Source: Acidobacteriota bacterium (GTDB taxonomy: Bacteria > Acidobacteriota > Blastocatellia > Pyrinomonadales > Pyrinomonadaceae). Taken from it: a stretch of 49,389 bases of DNA. Position numbers and translations under genes: made by a program. The DNA lies in NCBI GenBank assembly GCA_020199995.1, contig JAIVJM010000015.1, positions 1 through 49,389 of the forward strand, given 5' to 3'. The notes under the pieces were generated by a model that saw nothing but the letters and a program-made list of their open reading frames with translations, did no database searches and was not told the DNA's origin. Below are positions 22,551 through 35,422 of this stretch, piece after piece. How positions within the stretch are numbered: position 1 is the stretch's first letter; each line of letters starts with the position of its first letter.

Positions 22551-22579
22551 GGACGTCCCTCCCTCACGGTCGGGCTTCC
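22551..22579. repeat. Half copy of the CCCGACCGTGAGGG box
   Basis: ggacgtccctccctcacggtcgggcttcc reads like the right arm of the compound palindrome. It forms the last five codons and stop region of the MscS gene (product ends VEARP). No opposing arm is adjacent. Confidence 0.7.
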
Positions 22580-23649
22580 ACCCCGCGGCTCTCCGGTTCT
22601 TCCGCCGCGCCGTCGCCTTCGGTCAGCAGTCGTCCCCCGCGCGGCTCGATGCGGACGGCCCCGCCGCGCAGGTTGAGGTCGCGCTGCGGGAAGGGAATCT
22701 CGATGCCCTCTTCGAGGAAGAGGCGGCGGATGCGGTAGTTGATGTCGCTCCTGATCTGCGGGTGTCGGCGCGGGCGGGCGGTCCAGACGAGCAGGCGGAA
22801 GTTGAGAGACGAGTCGCCGAAATCCATGAACTGGACGCTCGGCTTCGGCTCGGGGAGGACGTGGTTGACGCCCTCGGCGGCGCGCAGAAGCGTCCGCGTG
22901 ACCACGTCCACGTCCGTTTCGTAGGAGACGCCGACCGGAATCGAGATGCGCGAGCGCCTGCCCCGGTAAGACCAGTTGATGAGATTCTGGTTGGTGAGCT
23001 TCGAGTTGGGGACGATGACCGAGACGTGGTCGTTGGTCTGCACGATGGTCGTGCGCAGGTTGATCGAGACGACCTTGCCGTCCGTGATCTTGTTGTCCGG
23101 CCCGGTCACGCTGATGAAGTCGCCGACGCGCACCGGGCGCTCGAAGAGCAGGAGGAACCCGGCGGCGAGGTCGCCCGCGATGAACTGGAGGCCGAAGCCG
23201 ATGCCGACCGAGAGCGCCGTGAAGACGACGGCGATGGAAGTGAGGTCGAGGTTGAGCGCGGTCTTGAGCGCGTAGAGCACGCCGACGACGATGATGACGT
23301 AGTTGATGAGGCGGAGGATCGTGTACTTGACGCCGGGGTCGAGCTGCGGGTGCGCCGCCATCCTCCGTTCGAGGAACGTGCGGAGGTAGCGCGAGACGAC
23401 GAGCGCGAGCAGAAAGATAATGAGGCCGAGCGCAAGGTCGGACGCCGAGAAAAGGAAGTTGCCGAGCTTCCAGCGGAAGTTAAGGTAGTAGCGTGCTGGC
23501 TCAGTCCAGCGCCACACTCGCTCCAGCACGTTCTCGTCCTGCCGCCAGAGCGCAAAGCCGGGAAGCGCGCAGCACGCCTTCTCCCAGACCCAACACGCGC
23601 GCGCCGCCACGACGGCTGCGCCCGACTCGATCAAAGACTCTCCGCTCAT
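22564..23649 (-). CDS. MscS-family mechanosensitive ion channel
   Basis: Inner-membrane channel that opens on osmotic downshock. The ATG at 23649 (MSGESLIESG) is chosen; an upstream in-frame start adds 14 charged residues. Three membrane spans lie at about 70-165, the last being the pore-lining helix with small-residue packing (FTALSVGIGFGLQFIAGDLAAGFLLLFE). The MscS beta domain follows (VRVGDFISV, then GKVVSINLRTTIV, VIVPNSKL) and the C-terminal alpha/beta domain ends with DINYRIRRLFLEEGIEIPFPQRDL, a family signature. The 361-aa length is usual for small MscS proteins. The final residues after about 335 are low-complexity and partly repeat-derived. Confidence 0.93.
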   Translation of the reverse strand: MSGESLIESGAAVVAARACWVWEKACCALPGFALWRQDENVLERVWRWTEPARYYLNFRWKLGNFLFSASDLALGLIIFLLALVVSRYLRTFLERRMAAHPQLDPGVKYTILRLINYVIIVVGVLYALKTALNLDLTSIAVVFTALSVGIGFGLQFIAGDLAAGFLLLFERPVRVGDFISVTGPDNKITDGKVVSINLRTTIVQTNDHVSVIVPNSKLTNQNLINWSYRGRRSRISIPVGVSYETDVDVVTRTLLRAAEGVNHVLPEPKPSVQFMDFGDSSLNFRLLVWTARPRRHPQIRSDINYRIRRLFLEEGIEIPFPQRDLNLRGGAVRIEPRGGRLLTEGDGAAEEPESRGVEARP

Positions 23650-23753
23650 CCCTTGCGCCCTCTCGCCTTCCCGCCCGGTCTTTCGCTGCAAACGAACGAA
23701 GCCGCCACGTCACACTGGGGTCGGGCGGCTCGCGCGTTCGGAAAAATTTAGTG

Positions 23754-23838
23754 TGGCGGAGGGGACAGGACTCGAACCTGCAAAGGATTTCTCCCGGTAG
23801 TTTTCAAGACTACTGCCTTGCCATTAGGCTACCCCTCC
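23754..23838 (-). tRNA. tRNA-Ser (anticodon UGA), CCA encoded
   Basis: On the minus strand, acceptor GGAGGGG pairs with CCCCTCC followed by G and CCA. The anticodon arm GTAGT-CTTGAAA-ACTAC has anticodon TGA. A long variable arm (about 15 nt, GGGA..TCC core) marks a class II tRNA, and the T arm is GCAGG-TTCGAGT-CCTGT. The D arm is short (GCC-taatggcaa-GGC). The 5' third of the gene is also the 3' end of an HNH endonuclease reading frame on the same strand, which is unusual. Confidence 0.88.
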
Positions 23839-24256
23839 ACAGAACCTCGTGACCTTTTACACCTAGAATGTCTCGAACATAATGGAGTGCGTTACAAACA
23901 CGGCAGAGGACATTATAATCGCTTAACTCTACTCTGCCGCTAACAATATCTCGATAGAGTTGGCGGTTCTGTCTTACCTTTGCTGCTGCTCGACCGCCGC
24001 CATGGATATGATTAATCTCCAGCAAAGTAAATTCATCACATCCGCAGTCTGCACACCATTTCCCGCCAAGTAAGTCTATCGCTTTCTCTCTCACCCGCTG
24101 GTGCTGCTCGCGCCACTTACGCCTTTCTTCTTCCGGGTCATAATCACTACTTTGTTTGCGGCGTTCGCGATAGACAAGCATGTAATCCCGCATATATTCG
24201 CGGTGCTTCTGGCTTCCATTCGGGGTTGCCCGATAACGGTTGTGTTTCTCCGCCAC
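23810..24256 (-). CDS. HNH endonuclease, homing-type, overlapping tRNA-Ser
   Basis: DNA endonuclease of 148 aa. The HNH core carries a zinc-finger-like pair (CADCGCDEF ... CRVCN) around INHIHGGGR, with NVLCRVCNALHY at the end, as in free-standing phage and intron homing endonucleases. The N-terminal 60 residues are basic and helical (KHREYMRDYMLVYRERRK), likely DNA-binding. The gene is clearly lower in GC than its neighbours, so probably acquired. The last ~10 residues (WRGSLMARQ) and the stop codon are encoded by the 5' half of tRNA-Ser. 25 nt upstream of the start is a partial tRNA 5' half, suggesting the gene arrived by insertion at a tRNA gene. Confidence 0.85.
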   Translation of the reverse strand: MAEKHNRYRATPNGSQKHREYMRDYMLVYRERRKQSSDYDPEEERRKWREQHQRVREKAIDLLGGKWCADCGCDEFTLLEINHIHGGGRAAAKVRQNRQLYRDIVSGRVELSDYNVLCRVCNALHYVRDILGVKGHEVLWRGSLMARQ

Positions 24257-24280
24257 ACCACAAGTATAACAAACAAGCCA

Positions 24281-24306
24281 GCCGTGACCAATTAGGCTAC
24301 CTCTTC
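24281..24306 (-). other. tRNA 5'-half remnant
   Basis: gaagaggtagcctaattggt (minus strand, then cacggc) looks like acceptor strand, TA, D stem GCC and D loop with GG, then GGC. It shares GGTAGCCTAAT with the intact tRNA-Ser at 23838. No matching anticodon stem, T arm or acceptor 3' strand follows. Confidence 0.55.
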
Positions 24307-24346: not shown

Positions 24347-25133
24347 CTACTTCATCAACTTGCGACGCGAGATGAACTCCGAGAGTTCGCGGTTGAACTC
24401 GGCGGGCCTGTCCATCATCAGGAAGTGGCTGGCGCCCTCCCACATCCGGTAGTCGAGTTCGGGCGCGAGCTTGCGGAAGCGCTGCTCGTTGTCCGCGGGC
24501 CAGAAGGGCGAGCGCGCGAGGACGGCGAGGACGGGGACTTTGATTTGATCCTCGGTCCAGACCGCGTCGTCGGCCATGCCCTCCATCGCGCTCACGGCGA
24601 CGTGCTGCGGCGTCGAGAGCATCGCCGCCTTGACCTCGGCGCGCAGGGCCGCTGGCTGCTGCGACGTCATGCCGTCAATCATCTTGCCCGCGATCTCCCT
24701 GTAGTTCGCGCCGCGCAAAGGGGCGAGGAACGGCTCCATCGCGGCGCGCGGCGCGAAGGGATAGAGCGCGCCGTCCACGCTGACGAGCGCGAGCGTCTTC
24801 TCGGGGTACTTGCGGTAGAACTGACGGACGACGGGCATGCCCATGCTGTGCCCGACGAGCACGGCGCCCGTCGAAGGCCGGGAACTGCATCCGCCAGAAA
24901 TTGAGGTCGCACGTCCAACCGTGGACGAAGATGAGCGCCTCGCTCCCTTTGCCGTAACTCCGGTAGTGGACGCGCATCGCTTCGAGCTTCGCGAAGCGCT
25001 CGACGCCCCGAGGCGCGCCCGGCTTGTCTCGCGGCGGCGCGGCGGCGGCAGCCGGTATTGAGGGGAGCGAGAGCAAAAGAATCGCGCAGGCGAGTCGCAA
25101 GGATGCGCGCTTGAGTGTTGTGTTTGAGTGCAT
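24347..25133 (-). pseudogene. Secreted alpha/beta hydrolase, broken by an out-of-frame internal deletion
   Basis: The 5' part (from 25133) encodes a signal peptide (LRLACAILLLSLPSIPAAAAA) and the oxyanion strand FVHGWTCDLNFWRMQFPAFDG. At about 24865-24885 the frame switches straight to AVLVGHSMGMPVV (nucleophile elbow) and the rest of the hydrolase fold, ending with WEGASHFLMMDRP (histidine) at 24347. Members of this family normally have about 45 residues between these points (the DLPGHGxSD region and the next helix). The junction therefore looks like a deletion of roughly 130-140 bp that also shifted the frame. An assembly error is possible. Each half is otherwise undamaged, so the event is recent. 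Confidence 0.8.
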
Positions 25134-25254: not shown

Positions 25255-25357
25255 TCAAGTCGTCAGCCGCCGATAGATGGCGGGCATGCGTTCGGGCATG
25301 TTGAGCACATCATCAATAATCGTATAACCCACTTCGCCGTAGAGGTCACGTATCTCA
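25255..25357 (-). pseudogene. Displaced 3' end of the CbbO/NorD-like VWA gene
   Basis: This strand reads [18 protein letters not shown], then [15 protein letters not shown] and a stop. The intact gene at 27625 ends [33 protein letters not shown] and a stop. DNA identity is visibly high (shared agcacatcatcaataatcgt). The remnant begins exactly where vsr stops, so it marks the far edge of the defence island. Confidence 0.88.
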
Positions 25358-25762
25358 GGAAAGAAAATTTCTCAGCATCGGTCCCAGTTGCTCGGGCGTC
25401 CGCGTCTGACACTCCCAGACCTGAAGCACTTTCCATCCTGCCTGTTCGAGCGCGGCGACATTCCGCTGGTCGCGCTCGACGTTCGAGAGCCTTTTGGCGC
25501 GCCAGAATTCGGCGTTCTGTTTTGGCGTCACGTTGCCATAACGGCAGTCGTGCATGTGAAAGAAGCATCCGTGGACGAAGATGATTTTGCGGCGCGAGGG
25601 GAATACAAGGTCGGGTTTGCCGGGCAGGTCTTTGCGGTGCAGGCGGTAGCGGTAGCCCATGCGGTGAACCAGCGAGCGCACGACCATCTCGGGCCGCGTA
25701 TTACGGTTGCGGATGCGCGACATGTTGAAGCTGCGCTGGGCGGGCGTGTGTACGTCCGTCAT
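25355..25762 (-). CDS. vsr: Very short patch repair endonuclease Vsr
   Basis: Nicks next to T in T:G mismatches that arise by deamination of 5-methylcytosine in Dcm-type sites. The 135-aa product matches the family throughout: [30 protein letters not shown] with the catalytic aspartate, [14 protein letters not shown] with zinc ligands, and WKVLQVWEC. The start ATG overlaps the stop of the upstream EcoRII-type nuclease gene (4 nt), so the two are coupled. Vsr is expected beside a C5-cytosine methyltransferase, but none is in the window. Confidence 0.96.
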
Positions 25763-26322
25763 GGTGCGTGCAGACGCTTCACGGAAGCGATGAAGGAATC
25801 GAGATCGAGGATCGTGAGCTTTCTCTGGCCGGGATATTTTTTATGGAGCGGTTTGGGGACGATAAGCGTCACGTTGGCCTGTCGCATCTCTTCAAGCTGT
25901 TTGGAGGAGACTCCCTCCTGAAGTGTGAGGATGTGCTTGATGGGGATTCGCGGGGCCTCTTTCGTGACCTGTCGCCACCTGTCTTTGCAGGTCGTCTTCA
26001 CGCCGATCATCATCAGCTTATGCAGAGGGTAGGCCGGGTCATTGTAGGCGGTCTTATTGGGGATGATTACGTCCGGGCGCGTCTCGTCCACGAGCTGTCG
26101 CATCTGGAAAGGGAGACCCGCCGCCGTGAAAAGGTGTTCGACGTGATTTTCCAGCGCGCGCCCGGCGCGCGATCTGCGCGCCTGAAGAATCTTCATCGCC
26201 GTCTCGATGAAGTCGTCGAGCGAGGCGAACAGCCGCTGCACTTCGGGTTGAAAGACCTTACGCTCAATCATTTTGAAGAGGCGGAATTCCTCTTTGACGA
26301 TTTTCAGCAACTGATCGTCCAC
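25759..26322 (-). CDS. EcoRII-type restriction endonuclease, C-terminal catalytic domain
   Basis: Type II nuclease of the EcoRII-C family (CCNGG/CCWGG-like sites). The catalytic region reads ENHVEHLF, then RPDVIIP and GVKTTCKDRWRQV, the family's D...VKxxxxxR signature, followed by KHILTLQEGVS and VTLIVPKPLHKKYP. EcoRII itself is about 400 aa with an extra N-terminal effector domain; this protein has only the catalytic part. The annotated start is GTG at 26322 with no ribosome-binding site. The frame continues upstream with sensible sequence (REAILDCIPQFGSVSV), while an ATG at 26386 (MFTSR) is in another frame because of 7 extra nucleotides, so the N-terminus may be frameshifted. The cognate methyltransferase is not in the window. 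Confidence 0.85.
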   Translation of the reverse strand: MDDQLLKIVKEEFRLFKMIERKVFQPEVQRLFASLDDFIETAMKILQARRSRAGRALENHVEHLFTAAGLPFQMRQLVDETRPDVIIPNKTAYNDPAYPLHKLMMIGVKTTCKDRWRQVTKEAPRIPIKHILTLQEGVSSKQLEEMRQANVTLIVPKPLHKKYPGQRKLTILDLDSFIASVKRLHAP

Positions 26323-27624: not shown

Positions 27625-30600
27625 TTATGTCGTTAATCTACGGTAGATCGCTGGCATCCGCTCGGGCAGTGATAGCACATCATCAATAATCGTGTAGCCG
27701 ACTTCGCCGTAGAGGTCTTTGAGTTCGGCTTCGGAGTCGCGGTCAATGGTGATGCAGAAGGGGGTGATGCCTTCGAGGCGTGACTGACGGAGCGCCTCGC
27801 GGGTGTCTTCGCGGGCGTAGCGGGCGTCGCCGTAGTCGTGGTCGTAGGGCCGCCCGTCGGAGAGGACGATGAGGAGGCGCGTGCGCGCTTCCTGACGGCG
27901 GAGCTTGGCGGCGGCGTGGCGGATGGCCGCGCCCAATCTCGTGTTGTTCTGGTAGTTGATGCCGCCGATGCGCCGCTCGACCTCTTCGTCGTAGCGCTCG
28001 TCGAAATCCTTGACGACGTAAAACTTGACGTTGCGGCGGCCCTCGCTCGTGAAGCCGTAGATCGAATAGGGATCGCCCACGGCTTCGAGCGCCTCGCTCA
28101 TCAGCACCAAGCCCTCCTTCTCGATCTCGATGATGCGGCGACCGGGGTGCGTGTAGGGCTGGAGCGGGTGCCGACCGATGGTGCGGGCGGTCGAGCTGGA
28201 CTGGTCGAGCAGAAACGAGACGGCCACGTCGCGCTCGCGCCGCAGCCGCTTCGTGTAGAGCCGTTCGGACTGCCGACCGTCGGCGCGGCGGTCAATGACG
28301 AAATCAATGAGGGCATTCAAGTCGTAGTCGTCGCCGTCAAGCTCGTTCCAGACACGCTTGAGGCTCTCGGGCCTCATCAACTGAAATTGATGCCGGATCG
28401 AGGAGATAACGCCGCGATAGCGCGAGCGCGTCAACTCGACGAACGAGCGCTCGCCGCGGCGCACGCGCTTTTCGACAACGCGGCACCAGCCGACGCGCGT
28501 GTCCGAGAGGTCTCTGTCCCATTCGTCATACTCGAAGGCCGTCTCGTCCGGCTCCAGCGTCTGCTCCGCCGACTCGCTCGAAGTCCAACGCTCAGCGCCC
28601 GTGAAGGACTCCTCGCCCTCGGTCTGCGACTCAAGCCCCGCCCATGCGTTGAAGAGGTCGCGCGCGTCGCGCCGCCCGTCGCCCTCGCGCCTCTCGCCGT
28701 CGGGTCGCTCGTCCGGCTCCTCTTCGCGCTCGCGCGGCAGGTTCGACTGCGCGCGTCCGTCCTCCGCCTCCGCGCCCTCCTCCTGCGTTTGAGATTGCCG
28801 CTCACTGCTCTCGGGCACGACCGACTGGAAGAGCGTGTAGACGCGGCTCGTCGCCATGAGGGTGTCGGCGACCGAAGAGCGCGCGCCCGCGAGATAGTCC
28901 GAGACGATTGATTCGAGCTCGGAGACGATCTGGCCGTAGGCAGAGCGCGCGTCGTCGAGCGCGCCGCCGCAGAGCGTGATCTGGAACAAAAGCTCGAAGG
29001 GCACGAGCGTCAGGGCCACACCCGCGATGCGCGGACGCCCCCCCCGCAGGTGCTCGCGCACGAGGTCGAGGTCGCGCCCGAGGCCGCGGTAAGCGTGGCG
29101 CAGGCGGCGGTCAATGCGCCCGTTCTCCAGCGTGCCGAAGATGCGCGCCGCGAGGACATTCTGCGGGAAGAGCGCGAGCACGGCGCGGTAGTCGCCGTCG
29201 GCGGGGAGTGTGGGCCGCGACTCGCTCTGTCTGCGCGCCTCCTCTGCGGGCGGGAGCGCGCGCTCGCCGCGCTCAATGTCGTTGATATAGCCGTCGAGCG
29301 CGAAGGCGTCGAGCGCGTCAACGTTCTCCGGCGAGTAGAGTTCGCCGATTGACTGATAGGCCGCGCGGAGGTCTGCGGTGGCGCGCTCGTGCGTGCCAAA
29401 CTCGATCTGCCCGGCGGCGTGCGCCGCCAGAACTTTGTAGAGGCGGAAGTCGAGGTCGTCCGAGCCGAACTCGGAGACGGTCGAAGGCAGGTGAATCGTG
29501 CGCCCGTCGCCGATGCGCGCCTCGTCGGGGACGGCGGCGAGCGGAGCCACTTCGACGGCGCGGCCCGTCAAAGCCTCGACGTAGAGCCGCAGGGTCTGCG
29601 CCACCTCTTCGAGCGCGAGTCCCGCTCCGCCGCTCCGCAACTGCTCCTGACTCCGGCGCGTCTCGAGCGCGTAATAGCCCCGGCGCGCGCGGGCCGTCGC
29701 CCCCGCGTTCGCGAGTCCCTCGGCGGCCCACCGCTCGAACTGCTCGATGGTCGTCGTGCGCAGCGCCAGCGGGGCCGCGCGGAAACACGAGATCGCCGCC
29801 TCCGCGTCAACGCGCGCCACCTCGCGCACCGAGGCGAGCACGCGCCGCACGACCCCCGCGACGTGTCCACGCTCGGCGCGGCCCTGCCGCATCGAGCGGA
29901 AGAACGAAGGACTCGTCCGCGCCAGCGCCACCAGTCCCGCGTTGCTGTGCTCGGCCACGGCGTGCAAAAGCCCCGCCCAGTCGTCGAAAACTTCGGGCAA
30001 CACCCGCAGCACCTCGCCGCCCGCGACTGTCGAGTGCAGCGCCGCCGCCCCGCCGCGCCCCAAAAATTCTCTGGCGTGCCGGAACAGTCGGAGCGAAGCC
30101 TCCGCGCTTAAACCTTCCAACGCGGCGGGCAGCGCCGCCCACAAGTCCGCCGCGATGCCGCCCGCGCGCAGAGCAAACTCCCGCGCCGTCTCGACCGCCT
30201 CGCGCCCGACCTCCGCAGATACACGCACGACGCTTTGACTCTCACGCGCCGCGCCCTCTTCGTCCATGCTCTCCGCGCTCCGCTCCTCGACGGAAACGCC
30301 CGTCGTCGGGGTGCGCGCGTCCGAGTCGGCGAGCCGCTCGAAGACGCGCGGCGTCGCCGCGACGAAGTCCGCGCTGTGCCGAGCCGAGCGGCGCGCGACC
30401 TCCAACGCGACCTCGAAGACCGCGCCGAGCAGCTCAGCGTCCCCCACGGCGCGCGCCACCTCCGGCGCACGCTTGTAGGTTTCGAGCGCGACCGAAGTCG
30501 AGAGCGACAACTGCCGCCCGCAGACCTCGAACAGAAGCAGGCGCGCCCCGCGCGGCACCTCGCGCAGACCCTCGACGCCCTCCGCGAAGAACCCCGCGCC

Positions 30601-35205: not shown

Positions 35206-35422
35206 AAAGCGCCCTCAGGCGCGGAAGAATTTAGCCCACGGCGCGCGCCGTGGGAACGAGCACCAACAAAACATAGAAAGCCCCGGAGGGGCGAAAGATA
35301 TTCAAGCTCGAGCACCAACGCCGCTTGGATTTCTTTCGCCCCTCCGGGGCTTAATTTTCTACTGCGCCTGTGACCCACGGCGCGCGCCGTGGGCTAAATT
35401 CTTCCGCGCCTGACGGCGCTTT
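35206..35422. repeat. Nested REP-like palindrome, about 217 bp
   Basis: Outer arms aaagcgccctcaggcgcgg and complement (ccgcgcctgacggcgcttt) enclose aagaatttagcccacggcgc...gccgtgggctaaattctt and an inner gccccggaggggcgaaag...ctttcgcccctccggggc. Same plan as 7858-8061. It fills most of the sppA-serS spacer. Confidence 0.88.

Follow-up and report, generated by a model that had tools for sequence, protein, structure and literature searches.

Homing endonucleases are usually found in introns, inteins and the gaps between genes. The nearest structural parallel to the locus considered here is found in the mORFs of the fungal mitochondrial genes atp6, atp9, cox2 and nad3 (Allomyces, Glomus), where an endonuclease gene inserts, the native gene end stays behind and the nuclease gene brings a foreign version of it, giving a hybrid gene (PMC3630166). 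The mORFs concern protein genes, their C-terminal ends and mitochondria, whereas the present case concerns tRNA genes, their 5' ends and bacterial chromosomes, with bases common to the open reading frame (ORF) and the tRNA; the protein-coding mitochondrial target that is a criterion for mORFs is absent, the target being a bacterial tRNA gene. As regards the target, the nearest parallel, judging by the accessible portions of the sources, is SegB of phages T4 and T6, a free-standing homing endonuclease located in the tRNA region, which cleaves tRNA genes (PMC13096335, PMC2988022) and whose 3' end has microhomology with the 5' end of tRNA-Tyr (PMC13096335). SegB, however, is a GIY-YIG enzyme of phages, and those portions contain no report of a left-behind tRNA half combined with a replaced 5' part. 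The enzyme I-Ssp6803I, according to a title cited in PMC3984707, is encoded in a group I intron of tRNA-fMet and is specific for the anticodon region. In the case of T4 I-TevI, a homing-site look-alike overlaps the promoter of the nuclease and acts as an autorepression site (PMC2988022), and in phage Aeh1 the insertion of the HNH homing endonuclease MobE splits the essential gene nrdA, which is still functional (PMC2988022). Here, likewise, an HNH homing endonuclease would interrupt an essential gene that stays functional, but nrdA stays in two pieces, while in the present case one complete tRNA is re-formed. No published description of free-standing nucleases that split and rebuild chromosomal tRNA genes of bacteria was found, with most subscription journals lying outside the search. 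The reading favoured below, and considered probable, is that of a free-standing HNH homing-endonuclease gene that splits tRNA-Ser(TGA) and carries a replacement for its 5' part; cleavage and homing are inferred.

The window, i.e., the whole analysed stretch of 49,389 nt of the contig JAIVJM010000015.1 (Acidobacteriota, Pyrinomonadaceae), contains on the minus strand, in this order, a tRNA-Ser 5'-half fragment, an HNH endonuclease ORF and a complete tRNA-Ser(TGA). The tRNA (23754–23838, minus strand), which has an acceptor stem GGAGGGG/CCCCTCC, an encoded CCA and a short, unusual D-loop TAATGGCAAGG, is supported by its fold, was called by ARAGORN and matches Rfam family RF00005 with 61.4 bits against a gathering score of 29. 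The ORF (23810–24256, minus strand; 148 aa, GTG start) runs into the tRNA, as the first-pass annotation, made from the sequence alone, had stated, and ends at a TAG stop within the anticodon stem; nt 1–29 of the tRNA (23810–23838, minus strand) form the tail (W)RGSLMARQ-stop, the T of the W codon lying at position -1, which makes nine codons plus the stop in the tRNA and not ten as had been counted. The left-behind fragment GAAGAGGTAGCCTAATTGGTCACGGC (24281–24306, minus strand) has an exact 18-nt core AGAGGTAGCCTAATTGGT (24287–24304), which corresponds to nt 3–20 of the tRNA-Ser(TGA) of other genera of the family (18/18) and shows a mismatch to the window's own tRNA in the D-loop. The fragment, already recognised in the first-pass annotation, is separated from the HNH start codon by 24 nt, and not by the 25 nt given there. 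The low GC content claimed for the element was borne out (~0.48–0.52 against 0.62–0.70 in the surroundings). There is no recombinase or integrase gene between the repeats, and the element consists of a single HNH ORF.

The HNH core (residues 68–125; 23882–24055, minus strand) includes two CxxC pairs and the motifs NHI, YNVLC and CNALH; alignment showed the conservation of C68, C71, C118, C121, N82, H83, N115, N122 and H125 in all six homologues described below. The assignment to the HNH group is based on these Cys, His and Asn residues and on matches to PHROG HNH families (best E-value 2e-6). Profile searches with the ORF found no matches in Pfam or NCBIfam, and it does not meet the criteria for the GIY-YIG nucleases of the SegB family or for the PD-(D/E)XK family PF11645 (PDDEXK_5). 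A PDB profile search gave no match, and the AlphaFold model had a mean pLDDT of 48, too low for a fold search. A candidate promoter of the HNH gene (24263–24290, minus strand; TGGTCA-16-TATACT, with TG before the second hexamer), supported by the consensus match only, has its first hexamer within the left-behind tRNA fragment, and it would probably serve the tRNA too; the overlap of a tRNA fragment and a candidate promoter is reminiscent of the I-TevI operator, with no binding or repression data.

Downstream of the tRNA lies a gene of an MscS mechanosensitive channel (22564–23691, minus strand; Pfam), whose position after tRNA-Ser(TGA) is, by synteny, conserved in part of the family; upstream of the element there is an alpha/beta hydrolase ORF (24347–24862, minus strand; Pfam). 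Near the HNH gene, Pfam searches indicated overlapping genes for a Vsr mismatch endonuclease and an EcoRII-C restriction protein (25355–25762 and 25759–26322, both on the minus strand). Elsewhere in the window, Rfam revealed two Acido-Lenti-1 RNAs in opposite orientation, 120 nt apart (35208–35254, minus strand; 35374–35420, plus strand), and ARAGORN called a tRNA-Arg(TCG) (30369–30453, minus strand) inside a 1106-aa ORF, which has no Rfam support and is probably a false positive. A second tRNA-Ser(TGA) is present in the same genome within a tRNA array, and the indispensability of the rebuilt tRNA is therefore not secure. This dense array (L039, G000:C160) comprises 23 tRNAs and another one (L040, G000:C340) 18 tRNAs; both contigs are possibly mobile or foreign.

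Protein and profile searches found the HNH gene in six of the 119 genomes of the family, belonging to five genera (the window and loci L032, L033, L034, L086 and L087), and each copy lies immediately 5' of tRNA-Ser(TGA). In four of the six (the window, L034, L086 and L087), the ORF overlaps the tRNA in the same frame, with the W codon TGG taking tRNA bases 1–2; the presence of this overlap in three further genomes, which represent two additional genera, excludes an assembly artefact. The ORFs of L032 and L033 end ~40–50 nt short of the tRNA, which may have its own promoter there. The gene is under purifying selection (pN 0.12–0.29, pS saturated); the ORF of L087 has an N-terminal frameshift and may be inactive. 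No close homologue was found in ~300 other genomes of the phylum, in viral contigs (searched with a single protein and a profile) or in plasmids; in phages, only weak matches to HNH proteins of Arthrobacter phages appeared, and the one inspected was not at a tRNA.

Fragments of tRNA were found in four loci (the window, L032, L033 and L034), at -54 to -21 from the HNH start codon. The score of the window fragment was reached by none of 200 mononucleotide shuffles compared with 32 tRNA types (P<0.005) and by none of 1000 shuffles compared with the window's own tRNA. For L032, P was 0.01 against its own tRNA and 0.05 against any type, for L033 0.01 against any type, and for L034 0.004 and 0.06, respectively; L086 and L087 have no significant tRNA fragment upstream of the HNH gene. 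The L034 fragment GGAAGCATAGG is equal to nt 1–11 of the tRNA at that locus, and the L033 fragment GGTAGCCTAACTGG mismatches the tRNA now present there, which is of the TTGGCAGAACGG type. In L032 and L034, a promoter-like stretch with conserved TTGAG and GTGCGG is followed by the tRNA 5'-end fragment and then by the HNH gene, which indicates that the tRNA gene was broken by the insertion close to the 5' end; the fragment stands directly behind a TTGAG..GTGCGGTATATTG stretch resembling the one that precedes empty tRNA-Ser genes, and it looks like the old tRNA 5' end behind an apparently native tRNA promoter. A different origin of the 5' half of the window's tRNA is inferred from the mismatch between the fragment and the present tRNA, with no genome of the same genus compared. 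Decayed tRNA 5' halves between the HNH gene and the tRNA in L032 and L033 were not significant (in L032, P was 0.03 under loose scoring only).

The position of the tRNA-Ser(TGA) gene was established for 107 of 118 genomes of the family, and ~95 loci without the HNH gene were read and oriented; absence of the gene is the rule, and most empty loci have a TATATT-like -10 box ~20–25 nt before the tRNA. Sporadic presence (6/119) at a fixed target with empty alleles in relatives is what is required of a homing element. The filled locus L086 has a near-identical empty sister, L158, with both flanks 94–96% identical, and in L086 the intergenic region has been replaced together with the native promoter; the tRNA 5' halves of the two loci are the same, and replacement of the tRNA is consequently not visible at L086. 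L158 also carries an intergenic repeat of ~290 bp with inverted ends, roughly 100–390 nt upstream of the tRNA. Another locus, L174, is a loss scar with only the last 23 HNH codons left.

The best evidence for the replacement comes from L087. Among the HNH-free tRNAs of its genus, 561 of 630 pairs have the same D and anticodon arms and no pair shows more than 4 differences, whereas in L087 these arms differ by 6–8 nt from all 37 other tRNAs of the genus and are identical (38/38 nt) to those of the tRNA of L175, from another genus. Its variable arm is identical to that of five tRNAs of its own genus. The L087 tRNA is thus a chimera of a foreign 5' half and a native variable arm, which supports insertion with replacement of the tRNA 5' part and suggests co-conversion from the nuclease side, of which such a product would be expected. 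The hybrid-gene pattern known from mORFs, a native end left behind and a foreign replacement end supplied by the nuclease ORF, is fulfilled by the fragments in four loci and by the chimera in L087; the two ends together, with significance, were observed only for another nuclease (L059 and the tRNA-Gly loci, see below). The first-pass annotation had proposed entry into the tRNA gene at its 5' part and rebuilding of the tRNA from the element's own end, and had named orthologous loci without the HNH gene and other HNH genes with 3' ends overlapping tRNAs as checks. Entry agrees with the empty loci in most relatives and with the fragments in L032 and L034, and rebuilding is supported best by L087 and by the like arrangement in the second nuclease family, with cleavage still inferred; both kinds of loci exist, with L158 as an empty sister and with overlaps in L034, L086 and L087.

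The D-loops of the linked tRNAs are also unusual. After the statistics, calculated initially for 72–78 loci, were changed to the larger set, which applies here, the consensus D-loop occurred in 60 of 95 other loci against none of the six HNH loci (Fisher 0.0035), a D-loop longer by one (+1) in 3/4 overlaps against 5/95 (0.0014) and an in-frame stop in 4/4 overlaps against 28/95 (0.0096), all uncorrected for kinship. In all four overlapping cases the ORF stop codon comes from the tRNA D-loop or anticodon stem, and +1 D-loops are present in some empty loci as well. It is a guess, and no more, that the altered D-loop shields the resident tRNA from the enzyme.

A second element surfaced in a control, in which the sequence preceding loci taken to be empty was scanned for stray 5' halves of tRNAs. 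L059 and L060 contain, at the same tRNA-Ser gene, a PD-(D/E)XK gene unrelated to the HNH gene (in L059, PF11645 with an E-value of 7e-17; in L060, frameshifted); upstream there is a tRNA-Ser 5' half, exact for nt 1–36 (36/36) and ending at the anticodon TGA, and downstream a complete tRNA of a different type. The L059 ORF stops at nt 8–10 of the tRNA, and L057 and L162 resemble scars left by deletion of this element. PF11645 is the Pfam family that includes I-Ssp6803I, the enzyme from the tRNA-fMet intron; the companion nuclease of L059 belongs to the same family but has no intron, is free-standing and has a replacement tRNA end, and the HNH protein of the window is not a member.

Relatives of the L059 protein turned up in 22 of 118 family genomes, and a same-strand tRNA starts within -120 to +400 of the ORF end in 19 of 23 resolved loci, against ~0.4% expected per locus; these tRNAs are tRNA-Gly(CCC), Ala, Pro, His and Ser. 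In three tRNA-Gly loci, nt 1–30 of the predicted tRNA encode the ORF end SGSGAMVAH/Q-stop; one of these loci is L249 in the window's own genome (G000:C46), where the PD-(D/E)XK ORF 1495–1929 ends inside tRNA-Gly(CCC) 1900–1974. The tRNA-Gly fragment left behind at L243, L246 and L247 agrees with the tRNA of other genomes at 24/25 positions but with the adjoining tRNA at only 20/25, and the two tRNA types exchange roles between these loci. Many other PF11645 loci have no significant tRNA fragment. A constant linkage of PF11645 to tRNAs was ruled out by genome G233, which served as a negative control and has copies without a following tRNA in resolved loci. This genome, acidobacterial and from another family, contains fifteen PF11645 paralogues (L269, L272–L285), and the expansion is unexplained. 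The PD-(D/E)XK ORFs of L248, L250 and L258 run through the whole tRNA-Ala gene before the stop, the translation of these tails not being established, and the PF11645 ORF of L268 (G061) overlaps tRNA-Ala(GGC) on the opposite strand, possibly as a 3'-end version.

Other explanations can be set against these data. In phages, HNH genes often lie close to tRNAs, and an ordinary HNH gene may by chance have come to lie upstream of a tRNA and to read into it, the fragment being a chance match, as the lack of significant fragments in L086 and L087 would allow; nevertheless, the same isoacceptor in six cases out of six, one frame in all four overlaps, the 18/18 fragment, the chimeric tRNA and the 36/36 fragment that accompanies an unrelated nuclease at this very tRNA gene largely refute this by recurrence and leave it scarcely tenable. 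Little more can be said for the remnant of a group I intron that carried an endonuclease and sat in the anticodon loop of the tRNA, a possibility suggested by the intron-encoded enzymes within PF11645 and by the end of the L059 fragment at the anticodon: Rfam scans of the window, L059, L060, L057 and L162 found no group I intron, the downstream part is a complete tRNA and not a 3' exon, and the insert is taken up by the ORFs, without space for a ribozyme. With the HNH ORF standing alone outside any intron or intein, this explanation, very improbable on that evidence, was rejected.

Classic attachment sites are provided by tRNA genes, and a direct repeat flanks the unit, so that a recombinase may be considered which acts in trans and site-specifically and would have brought in a small element, the fragment and the tRNA being two copies of the attachment site and the HNH gene being cargo; yet no recombinase gene lies between the repeats, the repeats are non-identical within one locus and match tRNA types of different genera, and the genes recurring at the sites are two unrelated nucleases, not recombinases, which makes this explanation rather improbable. 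It is also unlikely, though it cannot be dismissed, that the gene is no longer mobile and is a vertically inherited nuclease with another purpose (e.g., defence or a link with tRNA processing), which deletion has removed in most cases. Three HNH loci have the MscS neighbour in common, the gene is under purifying selection, a loss scar exists, and the HNH tree is not clearly incongruent with the SecA tree (AU P 0.05 for DNA and 0.17 for protein), so vertical inheritance is not rejected and the HNH tree alone is no proof of horizontal transfer. The patchy occurrence, the different neighbourhoods of L034, L086 and L087 and the foreign 5' half in L087 speak against it.

For the favoured reading, a homing-endonuclease gene with its own replacement tRNA end, the genome comparisons demonstrate, at the level of sequence, insertion at one tRNA gene, left-behind 5' fragments, a tail conserved in frame, at least one chimeric tRNA, recurrent loss and convergence of two families. 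The inferred first step would be a cut within an empty tRNA-Ser(TGA) gene, in its 5' half, with repair from the element-bearing allele copying the element in. Judging by the genome comparison, the old tRNA 5' end of the recipient stays behind, and the tRNA 5' part of the nuclease gene is joined to the tRNA 3' part, re-forming a complete tRNA that in at least one case is a donor/host chimera. At the overlapping loci, the promoter of the element may drive a tRNA needed for UCA codons, which would make imprecise loss costly, and RNase P, by cutting where the tRNA begins, would deprive the ORF of its stop codon and may thereby keep the nuclease low. More broadly, these loci may represent a class of small mobile endonuclease elements of bacterial chromosomes with at least two unrelated nuclease folds (HNH and PD-(D/E)XK), which invade tRNA genes, turn the old 5' half into a relic and bring a replacement 5' part that would act as repair patch, coding end, stop codon and possibly cleavage-resistant allele, repeated invasion and loss leaving chimeric tRNA genes and driving tRNA gene evolution; so wide a reading is about as likely as not.

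The removal of the nuclease's stop codon by RNase P is a candidate for a self-limiting expression circuit, and the pairs of empty and filled sites are a resource for finding site-specific nucleases aimed at conserved tRNA sequence. The nucleases appear to persist in the middle of a tRNA gene by bringing a repair patch, with bases common to nuclease and tRNA, and this offers a testable route by which selfish genes may exchange tRNA gene halves between bacterial genera.
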